Shown here one piece after another: positions 36,205-48,032 of a stretch of DNA of 52,492 nt. The first letter of the stretch is position 1; each line of letters begins with the position of its first letter. The translations under genes and the position numbers were made by a program. Source of the DNA: an uncultured Ignavibacteriota bacterium (GTDB lineage: Bacteria > Bacteroidota > Ignavibacteria > Palsa-1295); assembly GCA_903900335.1 (NCBI GenBank), contig CAIUMP010000039.1, positions 1 through 52,492 on the forward strand, in the 5' to 3' direction. Under the pieces are notes generated by a model. The model was not told the DNA's origin. It did no database searches and worked only from the letters and a program-made list of their open reading frames with translations.

Positions 36205-37641
36205 CTAACTCCAGAGGATTAGATATAACGACAGAGGCCAATGAAAAACCCCGTTGATATATCCAAATTGATCCCAGCTCTTTGTCACTACTACGGGCTG
36301 CGCGGAATTTGGATACAGCTTGACAAATTTGTGAAGCATTTTCAGGTCCTTTGGTCCGATATTCTTCCGGTATTTCACCTCAATTGGCAAATATCGACCC
36401 GAACCGACGTGAGCAATAAAGTCTATCTTTTCTTCCCGCTCCCGAAAAAAATCAATTCCCATTAAACCTCTGCCGAGCATTTTTTGGAGAGCAAGAAAAA
36501 CCAGATTTTCAGCATAGCGGCCCAGCGTCGCAGAGTCCTGTGCCAATTCTTGGGGCGAGATTCGAAGTACCGCATTTCGCAGCGCGAGATCAACAAGGTA
36601 AAACTTCACGTTGCCCATTCGGACACTCAATCCCCCCTTCCGAAATTTCGAAACATGAAAGAGAAGATCGGTCATTTCGAGTAGAGGTAGGTACTTCTCC
36701 ACCTGTTGCTTATTAATCCCCGTAGTCTCAGATATTTCTGACAGATTCTTTTCAACACCAGGAATCTCCAGAAGTGAGAGATAAAATCTTTTCAGCAACT
36801 CGGGTTTTCGAAGTTCTACCGCAAGCACCAGATCCTCGTCGATGACCTTTCGAATTTGATTGTCGAACAAGTAGTCCAGTTTCGAGACAAGCGTTGGAAG
36901 ACTCCACACCTCCGGGAAGCCTCCTTCGTGCATATAAACGCTCAATAGCTCGTCCAGCCGATGTTGCAGTTCAATGGACACATCCGGAATGAGCACCGCA
37001 TCAGGTGCGATGGAAGGCTCGATCACTTGTTGGAGCATTTCGGTTGCCGCTCCGCTCATCGTTTGAATTTCCGCAGTCAAGCTGGAATCTCTAAGTTGAT
37101 ACAGCGCATACTCCTTAAAGGAAAAAGGAAGGAGATGATAATCCTTCACTCTCCCCAAAAGGCTCTCCCGGCTTTTTTTGAAAATCGGCGAGCTGGCTGA
37201 GCCGGAAATTACAAACCTTACCGGGTACTTGAGATCGTAGTATTTTTTGAGATAAAGCTCCCACCGATCCAACCGCTGAATCTCGTCGAGGAAGAAATAG
37301 AACGGCTCGGAGGATTGCCGAGTAAGTTGCATTGCCTCCTCAATGAAGCTGTTGATTTCCTCGTTCGTGTTCATCATCAGCGCTGGATCGTCCATCGAAT
37401 AATAGACGATGTGCCGCGGGTTCACGCCTTGCTCGATCAAATCCTGGATGAGTTGATGCAGTAACGTGGTCTTCCCAACTCGCCTGGGACCCATCAGCGA
37501 TATGATCTGCGGAAGCGATTCGATGTCCCGTTTCAGGTCATCGAATAGCGGCCGCCGGAAACCCGAGAGTTCGGCAAAACTCCTGTTTGTATCCCCCCAC
37601 CACGGATTGAACGGAGGTAAAAGTCTTTGTAAATCAAGCAC
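36205..37641 (-). CDS. AAA ATPase with C-terminal DUF4143
   Basis: This 478-residue protein starts with GTG at 37641. The P-loop is LMGPRRVGKTTLLHQL, followed by Walker B FYFFLDEIQRL and sensor-like RFVISGSAS. The C-terminal DUF4143 part, a PD-(D/E)xK-like fold, shows GIDFFREREEKIDFIA and LPIEVKYRKNIG. Family members are common, mostly uncharacterised, and often considered accessory or mobile. Twin 42-bp palindromes lie just upstream of the start. Confidence 0.9.
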   Translation of the reverse strand: MLDLQRLLPPFNPWWGDTNRSFAELSGFRRPLFDDLKRDIESLPQIISLMGPRRVGKTTLLHQLIQDLIEQGVNPRHIVYYSMDDPALMMNTNEEINSFIEEAMQLTRQSSEPFYFFLDEIQRLDRWELYLKKYYDLKYPVRFVISGSASSPIFKKSRESLLGRVKDYHLLPFSFKEYALYQLRDSSLTAEIQTMSGAATEMLQQVIEPSIAPDAVLIPDVSIELQHRLDELLSVYMHEGGFPEVWSLPTLVSKLDYLFDNQIRKVIDEDLVLAVELRKPELLKRFYLSLLEIPGVEKNLSEISETTGINKQQVEKYLPLLEMTDLLFHVSKFRKGGLSVRMGNVKFYLVDLALRNAVLRISPQELAQDSATLGRYAENLVFLALQKMLGRGLMGIDFFREREEKIDFIAHVGSGRYLPIEVKYRKNIGPKDLKMLHKFVKLYPNSAQPVVVTKSWDQFGYINGVFHWPLSLYLILWS

Positions 37642-38249: not shown

Positions 38250-38308
38250 GGGGAGGGTAACACGTTAGGTGAGCTTAGGGATTCAGCATATTTACTCGGA
38301 CGAAGTTT

Positions 38309-40765
38309 CTATTTCACGACGATCACGGGCAGAGATGCTCGTCTCCCGCTCGACTCCACAGTACATTCGTACCTCCCCGACGGAAGCTCCGAGGCATCCC
38401 AATTAATTTCATGCGAACCGGATCCGAGTGGACCCTCGAACACTCGCGCAACGATGGCTCCTCTCACATCTTTGATCGTGACCTGAACAAGCCCCGCCCC
38501 CTTCATAGCTAATTCAATATTAGCGCGGGAGACGACAGGATTCGGCAAGCACTCTAGCGCGATGTCATCAATCGCGCTCACCTGTTCGCTTATCACTCCG
38601 CCAAACTTCTTTACCCCGTGCGCCAGGAGTGTGAGGCTGTCCCGAGGGATGGAATCACACGACAACGCGATGCGTGCAATATGGGCTAGCGTATCCGTCG
38701 CGTGAAAATGAATGGTGTCCGTCGCGTAAGCCCCGGGAAGCAGCACTGTGTCGGAAAGCCCGATCTTCCACCCAAAGCCATTGACAAGCTCCTGATGTAT
38801 GTACAAGGTATCCGCCCATGGATTCGAAAATACAATTAGTGAATCCCTCGTCGTGTTGATAGCAACATTGTGGAAGTCATAGCTCTTACCACCAATAACT
38901 ACATCGGGGAGATTGCCACCATTCTGCGTGTGAAGCACGATCCCATAATCGCCTACAATGTAGGCATTCATCGAATCGATCATCGAAACGGAGTAGAAGT
39001 CGGGAGAGATCGAGCTGTGGCCGTATCCAGGATAGTACCCCGACTGTTGCAGTTTCCACTTATTGCCTCCATCGGTCGTCCTGTACACTTGCTCGTTGCC
39101 ACCTACCGCAATTCCGTTCATCCTATCGCAAAACGAAAAGGTGTTCCCGCCTGCAACACCCTTCCATGTCCATCCCGAATCCTTGCTTAGGAATATCCCA
39201 TGGCCCTCCGAAGCAAGAACGGTTGTGTCATCCAAAGCTATGATTCGGGTAAGTGCCAGATGATTCGTTAGCTTTTCATTCCACACCTTGCCACCATCGT
39301 GTGTGACGAAGACAGCCTCACTCCCGGCGACAAGATATCCATCCATCCCGTTGGGTAAGAATGAGACATCTGTGATATTGGCCAACGTGGGAAATCGGTA
39401 CGGGTGCCACGTTCTACCGCTATCCGGAGACACCATGTAGTGCTGCGGACCCACAACATATATCCGGCCGTTGCTTTGCCGGAATTGATAGAACATTGTA
39501 TCAACCTGGAGTTCGAACCACGTCTTGCCGGCATCAAGACTTCGCGCCAACGGCCCTTTCATTGAATCCCCAAGCAGGAGAATGGTGTTGGGCCCAATAC
39601 GCAACACATCGCGAAAGCTGTGATGTGGACTATAGGTGCTCAACCAGTTCTTGCCACCATCCTCCGTGAGATACATATTCGGAGAGCCCGTCAGCAACGC
39701 GCCATGGAGCGTATCGGAAAAACTAATAGCTGTCAAATACTTCTGCACGAAGATCTCTCTGTTCTCCCACGTCCTACCACCATCGAAAGTAAATACAGTA
39801 CTCGCATAGAAGTCGATCGCGCATCCGAACCCGGAAGGCGATATCGATATGTCAGTCAGCGCATCATAATCGGTCGGCGGCTGAAGAGTCCATGTCAACC
39901 CTCGGTCGGTGGATCGGGCAAGCACTCCACGTGCACCTGTTGCGACGGCTGTTCCATTAGGCATCGCAACGATCCGATCCATCGCGCCATACGTCGAATC
40001 ATCGAAGACCGTATTCCAGGTGCTGCCACCATCCGTGGTGCGAAGAATGGGTCCCGTAATTGCATTATATCCTGCCATCAATCCAACCGAGTCATCGAAA
40101 AAGCTTATGTCGTACGGATCAACCGGAGGCCTGATCGCTTTTGACCATGTTACTCCATTGTCATGTGAAACGTGCAAACCAGTTTCTCCAGCGATCAAAC
40201 TCGTTGGCGAAATCCTGCAAACGATTGTGGGTTGATCTGCAAAAGTAGCCGGTCTCAGCGTCCACGAGATTCCACCATCGGAAGTAAGAAACAATGAGTC
40301 AAAGCCCGAACTCATGTTAACCGAAAGTACGCCATGGAGTGAATCGCAGAATGATACATCGACCGGCTTGAACCACTTGTGTACCCACGTCGCGCTCCAG
40401 GTAAGACCTGCATCGGTACTACGCAGGACCGTACCGGAATCCACTAAAGCTAAACATGCTGAACCTGTCAACCGCCGCAAGAAATATATCTTGTGGTCGA
40501 AGGGTGTCTGAATCTGTTGCCATGTCCTTGCCATGTCTTGCGTGCGATAGATCTGCCCACCCTCACCGCCAAGGATCATCACGGAGTCGTTCATCGCCAC
40601 GACTGCATTTACATATTTCGGAACCGCGCTGCGGGAAGCCAGTAGCGGACGCTCTTGCACCCAGCCATGTGGTTGAGCTGATGCGGAAGGCATGATGGAA
40701 TCGCAAACGAAAGGACTACCACTCCAACCAATCAGCAGAACAGCGATGATCACACTCAAACGCAT
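38309..40765 (-). CDS. T9SS-exported Asp-box beta-propeller protein
   Basis: In this 818-residue protein a signal peptide (MRLSVIIAVLLIGWSGSPF) is followed by many Asp-box repeats (RSTDAGLTWSAT, RTTDGGSTWNTV, ARSTDRGLTWTL, FTFDGGRTWEN). They resemble YCF48/BNR-type propellers, and two consecutive propellers are likely. An Ig-like spacer (about 620-720) precedes the C-terminal T9SS type A domain (LPNPVVSRANIELAMKGAG ... GRYECTVESSGRRASLPVIV). It is probably surface-bound. Confidence 0.88.
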   Translation of the reverse strand: MRLSVIIAVLLIGWSGSPFVCDSIMPSASAQPHGWVQERPLLASRSAVPKYVNAVVAMNDSVMILGGEGGQIYRTQDMARTWQQIQTPFDHKIYFLRRLTGSACLALVDSGTVLRSTDAGLTWSATWVHKWFKPVDVSFCDSLHGVLSVNMSSGFDSLFLTSDGGISWTLRPATFADQPTIVCRISPTSLIAGETGLHVSHDNGVTWSKAIRPPVDPYDISFFDDSVGLMAGYNAITGPILRTTDGGSTWNTVFDDSTYGAMDRIVAMPNGTAVATGARGVLARSTDRGLTWTLQPPTDYDALTDISISPSGFGCAIDFYASTVFTFDGGRTWENREIFVQKYLTAISFSDTLHGALLTGSPNMYLTEDGGKNWLSTYSPHHSFRDVLRIGPNTILLLGDSMKGPLARSLDAGKTWFELQVDTMFYQFRQSNGRIYVVGPQHYMVSPDSGRTWHPYRFPTLANITDVSFLPNGMDGYLVAGSEAVFVTHDGGKVWNEKLTNHLALTRIIALDDTTVLASEGHGIFLSKDSGWTWKGVAGGNTFSFCDRMNGIAVGGNEQVYRTTDGGNKWKLQQSGYYPGYGHSSISPDFYSVSMIDSMNAYIVGDYGIVLHTQNGGNLPDVVIGGKSYDFHNVAINTTRDSLIVFSNPWADTLYIHQELVNGFGWKIGLSDTVLLPGAYATDTIHFHATDTLAHIARIALSCDSIPRDSLTLLAHGVKKFGGVISEQVSAIDDIALECLPNPVVSRANIELAMKGAGLVQVTIKDVRGAIVARVFEGPLGSGSHEINWDASELPSGRYECTVESSGRRASLPVIVVK

Positions 40766-40791
40766 ACTGTTATTTATTATGAAATCTTCTC

Positions 40792-40881
40792 TAACGGAAT
40801 CAACAAACGCTCGAACTCTGTCTCGAACGATACAATGGTCAGTTCGGACATGCGGGTTTCAGCTGTTCGCATTGCTTTGCG
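40792..40881 (-). pseudogene. xseB 5'-fragment relic
   Basis: Translated on the minus strand, this stretch reads RKAMRTAETRMSELTIVSFE then TEFERLLIPL. It aligns with XseB residues RKEKPAADTRASETAIASFE then SEFERL, with about 16 of 26 identical. No start, and the remainder of the gene is missing. It lies just upstream of the 38309-40765 gene, whose start is 27 bp away. Confidence 0.7.
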
Positions 40882-40958
40882 GAGTAGCTTGGGGAGATTA
40901 ACAGTTGCGTTGAACAGAGGGGTTCACACCGAGCGAGGAACACCTTCGAATAATGTCG

Positions 40959-40966
40959 TATCTTTG
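40959..40966 (+). promoter_or_regulatory. Bacteroidota-type -7 element for the 41022 gene
   Basis: TATCTTTG matches TAnnTTTG and lies about 55 nt before the ATG at 41022. No clear -33 element is seen. Confidence 0.45.
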
Positions 40967-41021
40967 TTATGCTGTCTTCGCTGTTGTCGTACTGTTCATT
41001 CAACCTTATCCCTAGATCAAC

Positions 41022-41645
41022 ATGAAACATCCGTTCCTAACACGCCCCCGAACGGGCGCATCTTTCGCATGTGCTCTGCTCATCACTATCTGTTCTTCGT
41101 GCGCATCAACCACTTCGACGACCACACCTCCCGCCAACACCGGCTGCGGCACGGGCATCCTCTGCGCGACGGTCGGTGGCGCGAGCTATGTCGCCGAAAC
41201 ATATAATGCGACAGGCGACTATACGCAGGCAAAAACATCGGGCTCCTTCGCGAGTCTGAACAAGCTCACAACAAGCTTCCCCTTCGTTTGTACGGTCTAT
41301 GGACAGAAGGCACCCCACCCCCAGCAGAGCATTGAAATCAGGATCATTTCGAACTCAACGCCAACTATCGGCACGGCCTACGCGGTTGGCAATGCGATGG
41401 TCGGTCTGGAATTCGATTACTACAAGTTCGATGCGACCGATCTTGTCTTCTACGATTGGAGAGCCAGCACGAGTAACACAGGAAGCTCCGGGACGGTCAC
41501 GCTCACAAAATTCGACCAGACCGCCAATCTCATCTCCGGCACCTTCAGCTTTACAGGCGTCGAGAACGCACCGAACTCGACGCATGACAACACGACGGTT
41601 GTGGTCACCAATGGCTCGTTCACTGATTTGCCTCTGACGCAGTAA
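41022..41645 (+). CDS. Lipoprotein with DUF6252-like beta domain
   Basis: A 207-residue lipoprotein (ACALLITICSSC) carries a beta-rich domain ending in LISGTFSFTGVE and TTVVVTNGSFTDLPLTQ. The same closing pattern appears in the 45632-46114 lipoprotein. This ending fits the DUF6252 group of small Bacteroidota lipoproteins. It lies just upstream of the TIR array. The role is unknown. Confidence 0.7.
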   Translation: MKHPFLTRPRTGASFACALLITICSSCASTTSTTTPPANTGCGTGILCATVGGASYVAETYNATGDYTQAKTSGSFASLNKLTTSFPFVCTVYGQKAPHPQQSIEIRIISNSTPTIGTAYAVGNAMVGLEFDYYKFDATDLVFYDWRASTSNTGSSGTVTLTKFDQTANLISGTFSFTGVENAPNSTHDNTTVVVTNGSFTDLPLTQ

Positions 41646-41695
41646 ATTGCACGATCAACGTCAATTGCAACTTCGCATAAGACGCTGGCAAACAT

Positions 41696-41770
41696 GTAGC
41701 GAGTGACGAAAATCGAACGGGCGAGTAGCAACATTTCCCTCCCGTTACCCGTTACCCATCCACTCGCTAC
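41696..41770. repeat. GTAGCGAGTG...CACTCGCTAC repeat before TIR gene 1
   Basis: Perfect 10-bp arms (41696-41705 and 41761-41770) frame gttacccgttacccatcc text. It ends 7 nt before the ATG of the first TIR gene. A related version precedes the second TIR gene. Confidence 0.7.
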
Positions 41771-41777
41771 CGAAAAA

Positions 41778-43523
41778 ATGGCTGACATCTTCATCTCCTA
41801 TTCCCGCAAAGACTCCGAACAAGCAAATCTGCTAACAGAGCTGCTCGCCTCTGCCGGACTTTCCGTGTGGATCGACCGCTCAAGCATTGAGGCGGCGTCA
41901 AGCTGGTCGGGTGAGATCGTCGATGCGATCGATGCGTGCAAGGCGCTGATCGTGATGCTCTCGCCGAATTCGGTAGCATCGAAGAATGTCGTTCGTGAGG
42001 TTGCGCTTGCTACCGAGCGCGATAAGAAGGTGCTGCCGCTTGATCTCGAACCCGTTACACTTTCGCGCGATCTTGCGTATCATCTCGCCGGGATTCAGCG
42101 CACACCCATGACGAACATCGATTCTGTCATTCGCGCACTCGGTAAGCTGGGTTTAGAAGCAACACAGGCGCCGAGCATCACGCTCGTCAAAGAGACCGAT
42201 GCGCGGAAGTCCCTCATGATCCTCCCCTTCGAAGATCTTTCGCCGACGGGCGATAACGGCTGGTTCGCCGATGGGATCGTGAGCGAGATGATCTCCGCAC
42301 TCTCGAACATTAAAGCATTACGCGTTACGGATACGGCGACGACGAAGGACTTTAAGCGGTATCAAGGCTCATTGCCAAACTACGCGAAGGAGATGAGTAT
42401 CCGCTACTTCGTTTCCGGCGACGTCCGCAAGTTCGGCGACAACATCAAGATCACCTCCCGCCTCCTCGACATCGAAACCGGCGATCATTTGTGGCAAGAC
42501 TCCATGAAGGGCACAATGGACGACATCTTCGATATCCAGGAGAAGGTGGCGGAGAAAGTTGTAGAGGCACTGAAAGTACACCTCGCGTCCGATGAAAAGA
42601 AAAAGCTTACGACGCGCGGGACGGAAAGTGCCGAGGCCTACGAACTCCTGATGAAGGCGTACGAGTATTTTGGTCGCCAAACGAAGGAGGGCATCCAGCT
42701 TTCCGTTCAACTCATTTCCGAAGCAATCAGGCTCGATCCCAGCTTTGCGCGAGCCTATACGTTCAAGGCAAACTCGCTGACAGCACTCTACCGCATGTAC
42801 GACCGGTCACCCGCCCTTTTAGATGAAGCGGAGACACTCTGCAAAGAAGCGATTCGGCTTAAGCTTGATGGGTTGGCCATCTGCTACCCACTCTCGATCC
42901 TCTATATGCACCGTGGTCAGCTTGCAGAAGCAGAGGAAGCCCTACTGGAACAGATCCGAAAAGAACCACAAGATTTCTACAGTCATTTTGCGCTTGGCTT
43001 TTTTTATATGGAGACGGGCCAAGATCTCAAAGCGATCACTGCGTATGAGGAAGCAGCAACACTGAAGCCCGATCATGTGCCGATCTTGTTTAATCTGGTT
43101 CTCGCCTGCGACGCGGCCGCAGAACGAGAGAAATGTTCACATTGGGCGGCGGTCGCTCTTCCGCACATCGAGCGTCATTTAAAGCTCCATCCCGACGATG
43201 AAAGCCAGCGGGTCTTCCGGGCGCTCCTCCTCTATTATCAAAGTGGCAAAACCACGGCCGTCCGTGATGCGGCGATGCAGCTTACCAATTTGAGGGACGG
43301 CAGTTCGCTCTACAACACGGCCAGCCTTTTTGGCGCACTCGGCGACCCTCTCGAAGCTCTTCGAACATTTCGCAAAGCAATTGAGGCCGGATTTGGCAAT
43401 ACTCCTCTAATGAAGAAATTTATGACGAATCAAGAGGAGGGTGTTGGTTTGCTTGCGGGTACACCAGAATACGAAGAAGTACGAAGGATGGTGGAGGCCC
43501 TCGAAGTAACGAGTGATGGATAG
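41778..43523 (+). CDS. TIR - TolB-like - TPR protein, copy 1
   Basis: The ATG at 41778 (MADIFISYSRKDSEQANLL) gives 581 residues. The TIR domain (1-110) has box 1 FISYSRKD and SIEAASSWSGEI; Glu38 aligns with the catalytic Glu of NAD-cleaving TIRs by my reading. Residues about 143-280 form the TolB-N/CyaE-type domain (MILPFEDLSPTGDNGWFADG, RYFVSGDVRKFGDNIKITSR, DDIFDIQEKVAEKVVEAL). About 285-560 are TPR-like helices (RLDPSFARAYTFKANSL, TGQDLKAITAYEEAATLKPD). No signal peptide is seen, so it is cytosolic. It is a defence or signalling candidate. Confidence 0.88.
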   Translation: MADIFISYSRKDSEQANLLTELLASAGLSVWIDRSSIEAASSWSGEIVDAIDACKALIVMLSPNSVASKNVVREVALATERDKKVLPLDLEPVTLSRDLAYHLAGIQRTPMTNIDSVIRALGKLGLEATQAPSITLVKETDARKSLMILPFEDLSPTGDNGWFADGIVSEMISALSNIKALRVTDTATTKDFKRYQGSLPNYAKEMSIRYFVSGDVRKFGDNIKITSRLLDIETGDHLWQDSMKGTMDDIFDIQEKVAEKVVEALKVHLASDEKKKLTTRGTESAEAYELLMKAYEYFGRQTKEGIQLSVQLISEAIRLDPSFARAYTFKANSLTALYRMYDRSPALLDEAETLCKEAIRLKLDGLAICYPLSILYMHRGQLAEAEEALLEQIRKEPQDFYSHFALGFFYMETGQDLKAITAYEEAATLKPDHVPILFNLVLACDAAAEREKCSHWAAVALPHIERHLKLHPDDESQRVFRALLLYYQSGKTTAVRDAAMQLTNLRDGSSLYNTASLFGALGDPLEALRTFRKAIEAGFGNTPLMKKFMTNQEEGVGLLAGTPEYEEVRRMVEALEVTSDG

Positions 43524-43579
43524 CCCGTAACAGCAAGAGACATTTTCCGCTCGTTACCCGTTACTCATCCATTCGCTAC
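43506..43579. repeat. Related repeat before TIR gene 2
   Basis: gtaacgagtgatggatagcc and ctcatccattcgctac are inverted but imperfect. It overlaps the 3' end of TIR gene 1 and ends 8 nt before the ATG of TIR gene 2. Confidence 0.55.
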
Positions 43580-43586
43580 TGACTGC

Positions 43587-45350
43587 ATGTCTGACATCTT
43601 CATCTCCTATTCCCGCAAAGACTCCGAGCGCGCGTTAGAACTCGCGGAGCGGCTGCGCGCGCGTGGGGTGGATGTGTGGATCGACACCTCCGGTATCGAG
43701 GCCGCGAAATCGTGGTCGAAGGAGATCGTCCGCGCGATTGACGAGTGCAAGGCTTTCCTCGTGTTGATCTCGCAGGCCTCCCAGGAGTCGGTAAATGTCT
43801 CGCGCGAGGTCGGGATTGCCAGCGAATCGAAGAAGCCGATGCTCCCCGTCGCGCTCGAAGACATCAAGCTCTCCGACGAACTGCGCTACCATCTCTCCGG
43901 CATTCAGCGCGTAGCCTACACGCAGTTCGATGCGATCACGCAAGCCCTCGAAAGCTTCGGCATCACCCGCGAGACTGTGGTCGTAGATCGCGTAGGTCGG
44001 GCGTCCCCGCCCGACTCCCCCGACGCGCGGAAGACCTTAATGATTCTCCCCTTCGAAGATCTATCTCCAACCGGCGATAACCAATGGTTCGCCGATGGCA
44101 TCGTCAGCGAGATGATCTCCGCGCTCTCGAATGTAAAAGCATTGCGCATCTCTGATAACCAAGCCACAAAGGAATTCAAGAGCTTTAAAGGCCAGCTAAC
44201 CACCTACGCCCGCGAGATGGACATCCGCTACTTCGTGCAAGGCGATGTCCGAAAGTTCGGCGACAACATCAATATCACTTCCCGCCTGCTCGACATCGAA
44301 ACCGGCGACCACCTCTGGCAGGACTCGATGAAAGGGACGATGGAGGACATTTTTGATATTCAGGAGAAGGTGGCGGAGAAGGTTGTCGAAGGGCTGAAAG
44401 TACATCTCGCCGCTGATGAAAAGAACAAGCTCGCCGAGCGTGGGACGGAGAATTCGGAGGCGTATGAACTATACATGAAAGCAAGAGAGTATTTCTCCCG
44501 CGGTACGATGGAAGGTTATAGACTCTCCACCCAGCTATTTGCTGAAGCGATTCGTCTTGATCCAAACTTCGCTGAGGCATGTCGGTTCAAGGCGGTTGGG
44601 CTGACAGCACTTTACCGCAATTACAAGCTTGATCCCGCGCTTTTGGATGAAGCAGAAGCACTTTGCAAAGAGGCCCTCAGGTTGAAACCCGACTTATTCG
44701 CGGTCGGTAGCCCCCTTTCCCATATCTACACGCTTCGAGGGATGCACACTGAGGCGGAGGAGGTCGCAAAGGAATTCGTTGCGAAAGACCCGCAGAATTA
44801 CCACAGCCATTTCACTCTCGGCTATTTCTATGGCAGTATCGGGCAACCGGCCAAGTCAATCACTCCTTATGAGGAAGCGGTCCGTCTGAAGCCGGATGAT
44901 CTCACGATCTTAAGGAATCTTGCTTCGAACTGTGCGGCAGCGGGAGAAATGGAGAAATGCGAAAAGTGGGCGCGGGTCGCACTTCCGGCGTACGAGCGCT
45001 ATCTAAAGCTCCATCCCGATGACGAAGGCAGGCATGTGAGTCATGCGAACCTGCTCCTAATGAGTGGCAGAGCCGACGATGCTCATGCCGCCGCGGTGAA
45101 GCTTACGAATCTCAAGGATGGCAATTCGCTCTATAATACAGCATGCCTGTTCGGCAAACTTGGCGAGAGGGCGGAAGCGCTCGCGACATTCCGCAAGGCG
45201 ATCGAGGCGGGATTTAGAAATACCCGCCATCTTAAGGAATTTCTGACCGAAATAACGGAGGGCATCGTCTCACTTGTAGGTACACAGGAATATGAGGAGG
45301 TGAAGCGGATGGTGGAGGAGATAGAACAGGAGGCAAATGCAAATGCCTGA
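43587..45350 (+). CDS. TIR - TolB-like - TPR protein, copy 2
   Basis: This 587-residue protein is a paralogue of the preceding gene with the same domain order. FISYSRKDSERALEL opens the TIR domain; GIEAAKSWSKEI carries the aligned Glu38. TolB-like text (MILPFEDLSPTGDNQWFADG) follows from about 150, then TPRs. Between TIR and TolB-like parts, residues about 134-143 (DRVGRASPPDS) come from an inserted palindrome at 43996-44015; the first copy lacks it. The stop codon overlaps the start of a third TIR fragment. Confidence 0.88.
   Translation: MSDIFISYSRKDSERALELAERLRARGVDVWIDTSGIEAAKSWSKEIVRAIDECKAFLVLISQASQESVNVSREVGIASESKKPMLPVALEDIKLSDELRYHLSGIQRVAYTQFDAITQALESFGITRETVVVDRVGRASPPDSPDARKTLMILPFEDLSPTGDNQWFADGIVSEMISALSNVKALRISDNQATKEFKSFKGQLTTYAREMDIRYFVQGDVRKFGDNINITSRLLDIETGDHLWQDSMKGTMEDIFDIQEKVAEKVVEGLKVHLAADEKNKLAERGTENSEAYELYMKAREYFSRGTMEGYRLSTQLFAEAIRLDPNFAEACRFKAVGLTALYRNYKLDPALLDEAEALCKEALRLKPDLFAVGSPLSHIYTLRGMHTEAEEVAKEFVAKDPQNYHSHFTLGYFYGSIGQPAKSITPYEEAVRLKPDDLTILRNLASNCAAAGEMEKCEKWARVALPAYERYLKLHPDDEGRHVSHANLLLMSGRADDAHAAAVKLTNLKDGNSLYNTACLFGKLGERAEALATFRKAIEAGFRNTRHLKEFLTEITEGIVSLVGTQEYEEVKRMVEEIEQEANANA
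43996..44015. repeat. GTCGGGCG palindrome inside TIR gene 2
   Basis: gtcgggcgtccccgcccgac is a perfect 8-bp-stem, 4-bp-loop palindrome, translated in frame between the TIR and TolB-like domains. Confidence 0.75.
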
Positions 45351-45417
45351 CATCTTCATCTCCTATTCCCGCAAAGACCGCGAACAGGCAGATCTGCTGA
45401 CCGAACTACTCTCGTAG
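45343..45417 (+). pseudogene. Truncated third TIR gene
   Basis: The ATG at 45343 opens PDIFISYSRKDREQADLLTE and stops at TAG after 24 codons. Its DNA matches the first 24 codons of the first TIR gene more closely than the second. The first codons overlap the stop of copy 2. It looks like the remnant of a third tandem gene, lost by deletion. Confidence 0.75.
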
Positions 45418-45631
45418 AATTCGACGGTATCTCTTAGTGTCATCAAGCAAGCATCGCTCCCATCCGAAGAGTGAAGGGACATTCTTCCATTCAAACTCGT
45501 CCCCCCGCCTTCCTGGAAAGGCCATAGGTAGCCTGTCAGGTCGAACATATCTCATTCGTTAACAATACTATCCACCTTGTCAGTGCGGGGTGTGAGTCGC
45601 CACTGTCCAATAACATAGATCATTTCTAATT
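45418..45631. other. Spacer after the TIR relic
   Basis: A short reverse frame here (45363-45548) overlaps the relic and has no recognisable features. Probably what is left after a deletion. Confidence 0.35.
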
Positions 45632-46114
45632 ATGAGATCAACCAGATCCCTTCTTTTTGTTGCGCTTTTTGGAGTTAGTGTTTTCGCTGGCTGTTCGAGC
45701 ACCACATCTTCTAATGGTGGCAGCACTCCAGCCGCAACCAACGCTGCGACCATCAATGGAACAGTATGGACGCCAGACGTCCCAACCACTGCCGCCTATT
45801 TTACCGCTGGCGCCATGACGCAAGTCGGCTTGTTCGATTCCAAGAGTCAGATGCTCCAACTTGTCCTGCCCGGCGCTCCGAAGACCGGGACGTTTACCGT
45901 CGGTGCTACAACAGGTAATCCGTTTACGGGCCAGTTTGTGAAGGGCACCACAAAGACCCAGTATGTTATCACAAGTGGAACCGTGATCGTTAGCGCTGCA
46001 AGCACGACCCATATCACCGGCACCTTCAATTTCCACGCGACCAGTCTGGCTTCATCGAGCGATTCTGTCGTCGTGACCAACGGCAGCTTCGACTCCGCCG
46101 TGATCACGCAGTAA
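45632..46114 (+). CDS. Lipoprotein related to the 41022-41645 protein
   Basis: A 160-residue lipoprotein (ALFGVSVFAGC) carries a beta domain with ATINGTVWTPD and THITGTFNFHATSLAS, ending SVVVTNGSFDSAVITQ. It shares the closing NGSF-TQ pattern with the 41022 gene on the other side of the TIR array. It is followed by a terminator. The function is unknown. Confidence 0.75.
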   Translation: MRSTRSLLFVALFGVSVFAGCSSTTSSNGGSTPAATNAATINGTVWTPDVPTTAAYFTAGAMTQVGLFDSKSQMLQLVLPGAPKTGTFTVGATTGNPFTGQFVKGTTKTQYVITSGTVIVSAASTTHITGTFNFHATSLASSSDSVVVTNGSFDSAVITQ

Positions 46115-46134
46115 ACACAAACGGTCTCGCTTCA

Positions 46135-46181
46135 CCCTCGCTTCAGACCCCTCCGGGATATGGAGCGAGGGTTCTTTGTTT
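46135..46181 (+). terminator. Terminator of the 45632-46114 gene
   Basis: ccctcgc (46135-46141) pairs with gcgaggg (46165-46171), followed by ttctttgttt. The stem is short with a long loop that may pair further. Confidence 0.55.
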
Positions 46182-46213
46182 CAGAAGTAATTGCTGCGCA
46201 ATTGTAGATCCAT

Positions 46214-46327
46214 GTAGTCTGCGACCCTCCCCGTGTAGCGCAGACTTTAGTCTGCAACCCTCCCCGTGTAGCGCAGACTTTAGTCTGCAACCCCGGCACG
46301 ATGAGCAGACTAAGGTCCGCGCTACAC
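46214..46327. repeat. GTGTAGCGCAGACTTTAGTCTGC repeats
   Basis: Two direct copies of ccctccccgtgtagcgcaga followed by ctttagtctgcaa, and a third inverted copy (gagcagactaaggtccgcgc). The cagactttagtctg core is itself palindromic. The inverted copy ends just before the Kelch gene stop. Confidence 0.8.
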
Positions 46328-46345
46328 CGGGATGGCTGCGTTCGA

Positions 46346-47356
46346 TCACGGTGTAAAAACTTCGCACGCATGCAACATCCCAACGGTATCCATCCCACCA
46401 ATCACGTATATCTTGCCGTCGATCGTGCTTGACGTCCCGAACGCGCGCAGCAGAGGCGTCCCCGCAGTGGTCAAGGTGCTCCACACACCCGATGCAGGAT
46501 CGAACATCTGCGTTAGCACGCCTTTGCCTCGTGATATCCCGCCCGATGCGAATATCTTTCCATTGACAACCCCCGTCGTATGACCATAACGATTTAGCAT
46601 TGGGCCACTCCAACTCGGTACACTCCAGGCATTCGCGGAAACCTCCAACTGTTCGAGAGAATCGGCATGACCATCCATTCCACCAATTGTGTAGATCTTC
46701 CCACCAATAAGATCGCCGGTGTGAAATTCATTCGGAGAATATGTCCCACTCGTCAGGAGTGTACTCCACGTGTTTGTGGATACATCAAACACATCATTGG
46801 TCGTGAGCACTGGTCCGCTTGTCTCGCCACCGATGCAATAGATCTTGCTGCCGACCACCACTGCGACATGCCCGAAACGCGGCGTAAATGATCCCGTCGT
46901 ATTAAGCGTACTCCAAACCGACGTTGACGGATCAAACATCTGCACGGTGGTCACGACTTTCCCCATTGAGTCATCCAAGACACCGCCAATGACGTAGATC
47001 TTTCCATTGACTGCCGAAGAGGTGTGGCTTCGGCGCGCCGCGAAGTTGCCTGTCGTCACAGGTGTGCTCCAGGTGTTCGTGAGCGGATCATAGACTTCGA
47101 CGGTATTCACTTCTCGGTTAAAGTCCCCGCTTGGTGTCCCGCCAAGAGCATAGATCTTACCGCCCACCACGCACGAACTCAGCGCCGCTCGTGGCGTAAA
47201 ACCTACAGAAGAAATAGAAGACCAGACGTTCGGCGTGAGCGGCGCATTCGGCCCAGGGGACGTCGCGCTCGAACAGCCGGTGATCAATTGCAAAGCCGCT
47301 CCCAGAGAGAGCATCGCGGAAAACAGACGAAAGCGGAATTTGACTTGCTGCTTCAT
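46346..47356 (-). CDS. Kelch-repeat lipoprotein
   Basis: The start at 47356 (MKQQVKFRFRLFSAMLSLGA) gives a lipoprotein signal ending LITGC; a promoter-like TATATTTG at 47405-47398 rules against the longer frame. Six Kelch repeats of the form GGKIYALGG or NGKIYVIGG with (F/Y)DPxTxxW follow, forming one six-bladed propeller. Such lipoproteins are common on the surface of Bacteroidota; ligand unknown. Confidence 0.85.
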   Translation of the reverse strand: MKQQVKFRFRLFSAMLSLGAALQLITGCSSATSPGPNAPLTPNVWSSISSVGFTPRAALSSCVVGGKIYALGGTPSGDFNREVNTVEVYDPLTNTWSTPVTTGNFAARRSHTSSAVNGKIYVIGGVLDDSMGKVVTTVQMFDPSTSVWSTLNTTGSFTPRFGHVAVVVGSKIYCIGGETSGPVLTTNDVFDVSTNTWSTLLTSGTYSPNEFHTGDLIGGKIYTIGGMDGHADSLEQLEVSANAWSVPSWSGPMLNRYGHTTGVVNGKIFASGGISRGKGVLTQMFDPASGVWSTLTTAGTPLLRAFGTSSTIDGKIYVIGGMDTVGMLHACEVFTP

Positions 47357-47397
47357 AGAATTCGTTAGAACGTGGTTCGAATAGTTTGTATCACGCG

Positions 47398-47405
47398 CAA
47401 ATATA
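47398..47405 (-). promoter_or_regulatory. Bacteroidota-type -7 element for the Kelch lipoprotein
   Basis: TATATTTG on the minus strand matches TAnnTTTG, 42 nt upstream of the ATG at 47356. Confidence 0.5.
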
Positions 47406-47456
47406 TCGAACAGGAGCGAGCTACGTGTCACGGAAATGTAAAAGTTAATTCAGCGC

Positions 47457-48032
47457 TCAGCCCTCCAGCCAATTCTGCACCATCCTGACCCCATACTCCG
47501 TCATGTAGGACTCCGGATGAAACTGCACACCGCATACGTCAAGCACACGATGCCGCAGTGCCATCACCACGCCATCTGGTCCGCTGGCGGTGACCTCGAT
47601 CTCCTCTGGTAATGATGCGCGATCAACTGCCCACGAGTGATACAATCCTACGTATGTCCCACTCGGTACATCTCGGAACACCACGTCCTTTCGTTCAATA
47701 GTGATGGCCACGCGCTGACCATGATTCGGCCTCGGAAGATTGTATATCCTGCCGCCGAAGAACTCCGCTATCGCCTGCTGGCCCAGGCAAACACCGAGGA
47801 TGGGAATGCTCCCCGCATGTTCTCGAAGCACCTCGAACATCTCCGGGAATTCACTCGGCAGACCCGGCCCCGGAGAGAAGATGATCTTATCAAAGCCACT
47901 AATCTCCACACCCGGAATGTTGTTGTGCGCAATTACCGTGCACGCGTACCCATCCGTCTCGCGGACGATCTGTGCGAGATTGTGCGTAAACGAATCGCGA
48001 TTATCTATTATCAGTATCTGTGACGTTCTCAT
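47457..48032 (-). CDS. pabA: Aminodeoxychorismate synthase component II (glutamine amidotransferase)
   Basis: This 191-residue class I amidotransferase supplies ammonia from glutamine to PabB. The nucleophile Cys is in ILGVCLGQQAIAE (about 79), the oxyanion-binding FSPGPGLPSE is upstream, and the catalytic His-Glu pair is in GVQFHPES. Because pabB and pabC lie next door, the pab role is preferred over trpG. It is divergent from pabB, with 5' ends touching or overlapping. Confidence 0.9.
   Translation of the reverse strand: MRTSQILIIDNRDSFTHNLAQIVRETDGYACTVIAHNNIPGVEISGFDKIIFSPGPGLPSEFPEMFEVLREHAGSIPILGVCLGQQAIAEFFGGRIYNLPRPNHGQRVAITIERKDVVFRDVPSGTYVGLYHSWAVDRASLPEEIEVTASGPDGVVMALRHRVLDVCGVQFHPESYMTEYGVRMVQNWLEG

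Follow-up and report, generated by a model that had tools for sequence, protein, structure and literature searches.

TIR–TolB_N-fold–TPR genes of an uncultured Ignavibacteriota bacterium: arrays, exchanged modules and a variable TPR groove

What kind of protein is encoded by two long adjacent genes that each fuse a TIR domain to a TolB-like domain and TPR helices, and where does the short start fragment behind them come from? The genes are found in contig CAIUMP010000039.1 of an uncultured Ignavibacteriota bacterium (assembly GCA_903900335.1); the entire contig of 52,492 nucleotides, C39 of a 4.0-Mb genome labelled G000, was analysed and is termed the window. Candidatus Kapaibacterium and Ignavibacteriae MAGs are among the closest named matches to this genome. 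The relatives of these genes form a multigene family that occurs in tandem arrays, swaps its outer modules and varies most in the groove of the TPR solenoid. We regard it as rather probable that the locus is a small array of a lineage-specific family of cytosolic receptors, each composed of three modules that can be exchanged.

The tandem genes and their three modules

The genes, the fragment and the modules on which the argument turns all lie on the forward strand:

41778..43523 (+): copy 1, TIR – TolB_N-fold – TPR gene of 581 amino acids (aa); open reading frame (ORF), Pfam, included in the 83-gene alignment
43587..45350 (+): copy 2, TIR – TolB_N-fold – TPR gene of 587 aa; ORF, Pfam, AlphaFold2 model
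45343..45417 (+): truncated third copy, 24 codons and then TAG (45415-45417); ORF, profile of family starts
41997..41999 (+): Glu74 codon of copy 1, candidate NADase glutamate; alignment
43806..43808 (+): Glu74 codon of copy 2, candidate NADase glutamate; alignment
42195..42632 (+): copy 1, middle module with TolB_N fold; fold assigned from the copy 2 model
44016..44456 (+): copy 2, middle module with TolB_N fold; own model, fold searches
44442..45221 (+): copy 2, TPR module (codons 286-545 of the reference); Pfam, model, structure matches

That the long genes are tandem paralogues with TIR and TPR domains, as an earlier note on this DNA had stated, is confirmed by Pfam matches to TIR_2 (2.7e-20 and 2.5e-22) and by TPRs above the cut-off in both. 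A family profile matched 116 ORFs, 83 of which were kept as full length; the other 33 were fragments or were split by stops, cut by contig ends or, for one G003:C5 gene, cut by a locus border. Since G000 harbours 20 TIR_2 matches and 15 full-length members, the tandem pair is not a chance occurrence.

The N-terminal module has a TIR fold. In the AlphaFold2 model of copy 2 (predicted local distance difference test, pLDDT, 83.6; predicted template modelling score, pTM, 0.57), residues 1-130 match chain 8qlo_A of SPARTA TIR-APAZ with a Z of 17.0 and a root-mean-square deviation (rmsd) of 2.6 over 128 residues. Glu38 had been proposed as the NADase glutamate, an assignment that does not hold: its column contains Glu in only 32 of the 83 full-length relatives (the others have Asp, Gly, Ala etc.) and falls on Asp40 of TIR-APAZ. 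Glu74, located in the alpha-C region, is invariant (83/83) and aligns in sequence with Glu77, the residue altered in the catalytic mutant E77A according to the available part of PMC10474274. Glu74 is therefore the candidate catalytic residue of a putatively NAD+-cleaving domain, and Glu74, not Glu38, is the residue to mutate in experiments.

For the middle domain, Pfam gives no match. Modelled alone, that of copy 2 (pLDDT 84.8, pTM 0.77) resembles the TolB N-terminal domain (Foldseek 2.3e-7; VIA Z 14.4, rmsd 3.0, 133 residues), followed at lower rank by FlgT, PelC and CadC; folds absent from the VIA listing do not count as excluded. By structure, the domain thus has the TolB_N/FlgO/LpoB superfamily fold, although no Pfam profile of this superfamily scores above its cut-off in the window's middle domain, and kinase-bearing relatives of the same chassis likewise match TolB_N and FlgO only below the cut-off. 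From residue 285 onwards the model of copy 2 matches TPR solenoids such as O-GlcNAc transferase (OGT). Neither copy contains a Walker A motif, and the proteins lack a transmembrane-like segment (hydropathy maximum 1.21).

Variability of the TPR groove and exchange of modules

Which module would do the sensing? In TPRs at large, positions 2, 5, 9, 12, 13, 33 and 34, all on the concave face, are the most variable (PMC1261162, the part available); the first five were taken here as the groove set. In the clade of 20 genes that share 60% or more middle-domain identity with copy 2, mean entropy is 2.52 at groove positions versus 1.87 at other exposed positions (p 5e-5), with values of 1.36 for buried TPR positions and 0.64 for the middle domain. 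All 83 genes show the same direction (3.28 versus 2.86). The excess persists when any one repeat is left out and upon shuffling of labels (p 0.005), and it is reversed in a control, a single-copy TPR orthologue from the same genomes and their relatives (28 sequences, after removal of two split G006 loci from 30), where the groove reaches 1.37 and exposed positions 1.88 (p 1e-5). Conservation in the clade is highest in the middle domain, and the variability sits in the TPR groove, which makes the TPRs the better sensor candidate. Of the earlier idea that the TolB-like domain is an unusual sensor module, the fold was borne out by Foldseek and VIA, but the sensor role was not.

Groove diversity, together with the birth and death of genes, would fit any recognition of non-self, including kin or strain discrimination, where the groove would recognize polymorphic proteins of self or neighbours and the TIR domain would kill mismatched cells. 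Beside the window's array, however, neither a delivery system nor a matched ligand gene turned up, and we judge this variant distinctly improbable.

Sequence comparison further shows that TIR and TPR modules have been swapped between copies, also across genera. Within the window, the mosaic gene is copy 1:

41820..42194 (+): copy 1, exchanged tract of TIR and linker (reference codons 15-145, approximately); nucleotide identity, permutations

Codons 15-145 of copy 1 are 0.85 identical in nucleotides to the gene G000:C62:4162-5907 versus 0.55 to copy 2, while outside this tract copy 1 is closer to copy 2 (0.69) than to the C62 gene (0.62), a pattern reached in 0 of 20000 permutations. The same result (0/20000, best triple per gene) was obtained for 25 of the 58 genes tested across five genomes, and 22 of the 36 interior borders of these 25 genes fall in 112-161 or 240-300, windows near the module borders that were chosen after the breakpoints were known.

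Such mosaics could in principle reflect unequal rates, with fast TPR evolution mimicking exchange and the third copy representing ordinary gene decay. Lineage-specific rates can mislead triplet tests, the p-values of which refer here to the best triple, and the synonymous evidence for copy 1 itself is moderate: its synonymous divergence (pS) from the C62 donor is 0.55 in the TIR module, 0.83 in the middle and 0.76 in the TPRs, and codons with a synonymous change number 49/117 in the TIR tract versus 132/238 elsewhere (Fisher p 0.018; 0.058 against the middle alone). Shifts in protein rate do not lower synonymous divergence, however, and this makes it a stronger test of exchange than the triple permutations. 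Six of the 3403 pairs combine a TPR pS of 0.26-0.37 with saturated TIR and middle modules (0.64-0.81); these pairs include genes on separate G000 contigs, G000-G003 and G002-G008 (different genera). Another two pairs of the 3403 show a TIR pS of 0.44 and 0.73-0.87 in the rest, and a single-copy control gene has a pS of 0.64-0.90 across all 55 genome pairs. The borders are clear, near codon 127 for the TIR module and from near codons 231-261 for the TPR cassettes; for the two tandem G002 genes the rise sets in nearer codon 210. An explanation by unequal rates is therefore very improbable indeed, and exchange of modules stands.

Arrays, truncated copies and genomic surroundings

All 13 genomes of the Kapabacteria-like bacterial family to which G000 belongs have TIR_2 matches, ranging from a single one in G009, a genome 67% complete, to 25; the other 12 genomes contain 2-25 (G000, 20; G003, 25). 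Copy number in relatives was a proposed check of the array idea, and the genes proved to be multi-copy. About ten members stand in a row at C5:7053-25016 of G003, and stop and start overlap in 19 of 28 adjacent full-length pairs. Member counts are lower bounds, because several arrays run to contig ends.

The fragment behind copy 2 is an example of this interlocking. Its ATG at 45343 overlaps the TGA of copy 2 (45348-45350), so that ATG-N-CTGA serves as stop of one gene and start of the next. As the earlier note had observed, it ends in TAG after 24 codons and its start is nearer to copy 1, with 87% identity over 69 nucleotides, the best value among the 83 genes. The DNA around the starts of the two long genes is shared as well:

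41731..41818 (+): 88-nucleotide tract around the copy 1 start, 88% shared with copy 2
43540..43627 (+): 88-nucleotide tract around the copy 2 start, 88% shared with copy 1

DNA following 94 gene ends of the family was scored with a profile of the first 36 nucleotides of its members, at a level exceeded by 0.1% of 4000 random windows. One end had no sequence behind it, 27 led to a full next copy, 4 to a copy interrupted at the border of a contig or locus, 12 to a truncated copy (9 short stubs, 3 longer) and 50 to nothing above this level. A truncated remnant hence marks 12 of 62 run ends, across 8 genomes. Because the first bases of a last copy hold the stop of the preceding gene, its deletion would have to spare them, and on the simplest reading the stub 45343-45417 looks like a deletion scar. 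The earlier view that the array expands, contracts and recombines is well supported by the mosaic copy 1, the arrays, the stubs and the low-pS cassettes with their clear borders.

Two DNA elements were considered and rejected. A conserved element spanning the initial 12 codons, taken as a general recombination site, is suggested by synonymous conservation in G000 (p 0.002) only; such conservation is absent in G003, G005, G007 and G008 (p 0.10-0.80). The spacer motif CGTTACCCGTTAC, with 3 matches in the window versus 0.72 expected, is a local repeat. Rfam gave no match anywhere in the window. Among further TIR loci of G000, a member at C56:225392-227155 (L040) is broken behind its TIR domain by a TAG in frame, so that TIR and TolB_N-TPR form two ORFs, and a TIR_2 gene at C56:162172-162471 (L041; 394-aa frame) has no match to the family profile.

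The array itself resides in an apparent insertion:

38250..47459 (no strand): about 9.2-kb insert holding the array, between xseB and pabA; comparison with G001

In G001 xseB and pabA are 92 bases apart; the insert is read from this one comparison, because G001 is the only other member of the genus with an intact pabB match. The surroundings of the array include dxs, xseA, pab genes, a gene called xseB-like for its position and size, a gene for a Kelch protein and lipoprotein-like genes. Two of the latter, 41022-41642 and 45632-46111 (+), flank the TIR pair and have similar ends (VVVTNGSF), the first matching DUF6252. An AAA_14/DUF4143 ATPase gene (window 36208-37641, -) separates dxs from xseB; since these two are direct neighbours in G001, it marks a second insertion nearby. 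No match was found in 50,697 phage records or, searching by exact short patterns, in viral contigs; plasmid matches were partial, none reaching 80% query cover.

A candidate receptor and its known counterparts

How might such a protein work? In the scheme we favour, the N-terminal TIR domain with its candidate NADase glutamate would provide the output, the conserved TolB_N-fold domain would act as chassis or transducer, and the C-terminal TPR solenoid with its hypervariable groove would sense varied ligands, possibly in defence. A ligand bound in the groove would lead the TIR domains to assemble and to cleave NAD+. Homologous recombination among paralogues and between genomes swaps TIR and TPR modules, and duplication and deletion alter copy number; as the stop often lies inside the start of the next copy, deletion would leave a 5' stub such as 45343-45417.

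Several points weigh against this receptor scheme. On their own, the G003 genes show no groove excess (-0.01). Ratios of nonsynonymous to synonymous change (dN/dS) do not prove positive selection: 13 independent pairs have sites close to saturation, with the groove not above exposed positions, and in six low-pS pairs from two trios the values of 0.65 for groove, 0.44 for exposed and 0.36 for buried positions all stay below 1. TIR domains can serve as scaffolds rather than enzymes. No known downstream partner was found; a search of the genome for ThsA-type STALD effectors gave no match, but neither did the 14 control genomes. The ten window neighbours scanned with Pfam are housekeeping or hypothetical genes, and PADLOC, run on 120 of 121 listed neighbour proteins of the G000 TIR loci (one of 1705 aa was left out) with no background control, matched 22 families in few, scattered hits, including mad3, mad8, AriA, PDC candidates and DndA/SspA, the last of which may be a housekeeping desulfurase. 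As the neighbours are mostly housekeeping genes, a defence island is unsupported; of the likeness to defence loci noted earlier, expansion and recombination stand, and the location lends defence no support.

These neighbours fit another explanation, namely ordinary one-component signalling proteins, in which the TIR domain is a scaffold or makes a second messenger in physiology and the expansion serves many internal signals. Outside the family the same chassis indeed carries other outputs in place of TIR: of 7 relatives scanned, 6 have a Pkinase and 1 a guanylate cyclase domain, and the periplasmic sensor of CadC shares the middle fold (Z about 11). Yet modules cross genera at low synonymous divergence, TIR_2 copy number varies from 2 to 25 (in the 12 genomes other than G009), and the groove is hypervariable, whereas steady physiology predicts conserved orthologues. 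We consider physiological signalling unlikely and retain the receptor array as the preferred interpretation.

The distribution of the chassis is wider than that of the TIR fusion. In a phylum sample of 296 genomes, 24 have a match at 1e-25, and a match spanning TIR and middle domain occurs in only 3, all from the bacterial family of the window (the threshold may hide remote fusions). Repeated genes of the kinase-TolB_N-TPR type stand close together on one strand at G281:C19:63804-75754 and G254:C15:47421-55536, in other families of the class; the one gene scanned from each set contains a Pkinase. Arrays may be a habit of the TolB_N-TPR chassis whatever its output domain.

Pkinase- or cyclase-TolB_N-TPR proteins and the CadC/HilA regulators share the middle and TPR chassis and differ in output, which is a kinase or cyclase in the former and DNA-binding in CadC/HilA. 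CadC senses in the periplasm, while the TIR proteins lack a transmembrane-like segment. With SPARTA TIR-APAZ and short pAgo, whose TIR domains are among the closest solved ones by structure and sequence, the family shares the aligned catalytic Glu but no APAZ domain, and no Ago is present among the ten Pfam-scanned neighbours. Thoeris ThsB has a TIR_2-type domain in common, with weak profile matches to ThsB models, but the proteins described here are single long receptors with TPRs, and ThsA is found neither among the ten window neighbours nor among the 22 PADLOC families. Sensors of multicellular bacteria diversified by diversity-generating retroelements (DGRs) also reside on conflict proteins that may carry TIR; there, according to the accessible part of PMC10907252, C-type lectin domains undergo targeted hypermutation, while the TIR family exchanges modules between paralogues. 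The open-access literature on TIR with TolB, TPR, NADase or anti-phage function, on tandem arrays and recombination, on module shuffling and on Kapabacteria with TIR or defense system contained no report of a TIR–TolB_N–TPR family, including the accessible parts of PMC7159879, PMC10907252 and PMC13142454; subscription papers lie outside this scope.

The layout comes closest to STAND/NLR receptors (Avs, bNACHT, plant TIR-NLRs), which likewise combine an N-terminal effector, a middle module and a C-terminal variable repeat sensor. Antiviral STAND proteins use TPR sensors, as stated in the part of PMC10907252 available. The family has the C-terminal repeats and the N-terminal effector domain of this layout, with TPR sensing and TIR action presumed, and differs in its centre: in place of the STAND nucleoside triphosphatase (NTPase) stands a TolB_N fold without Walker A motif, and hence there is no NTPase switch. 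Plant TIR-NLRs form multicopy clusters. A wider reading, somewhat doubtful, is that Kapabacteria-like bacteria keep an NTPase-free counterpart of these clusters, in which interlocked arrays and TPR cassettes swapped between loci and genera yield a combinatorial repertoire of non-self receptors in each genome. If true, bacteria can diversify a repertoire of TIR receptors by exchanging the sensor cassettes that a constant chassis carries, with neither NTPase switch nor hypermutation machinery; the hypervariable groove positions would make the ligands directly searchable, and the exchange borders would indicate where functional modules can be cut. In swapping TIR and TPR modules between copies and across genera, the family resembles the disease-resistance genes of plants.

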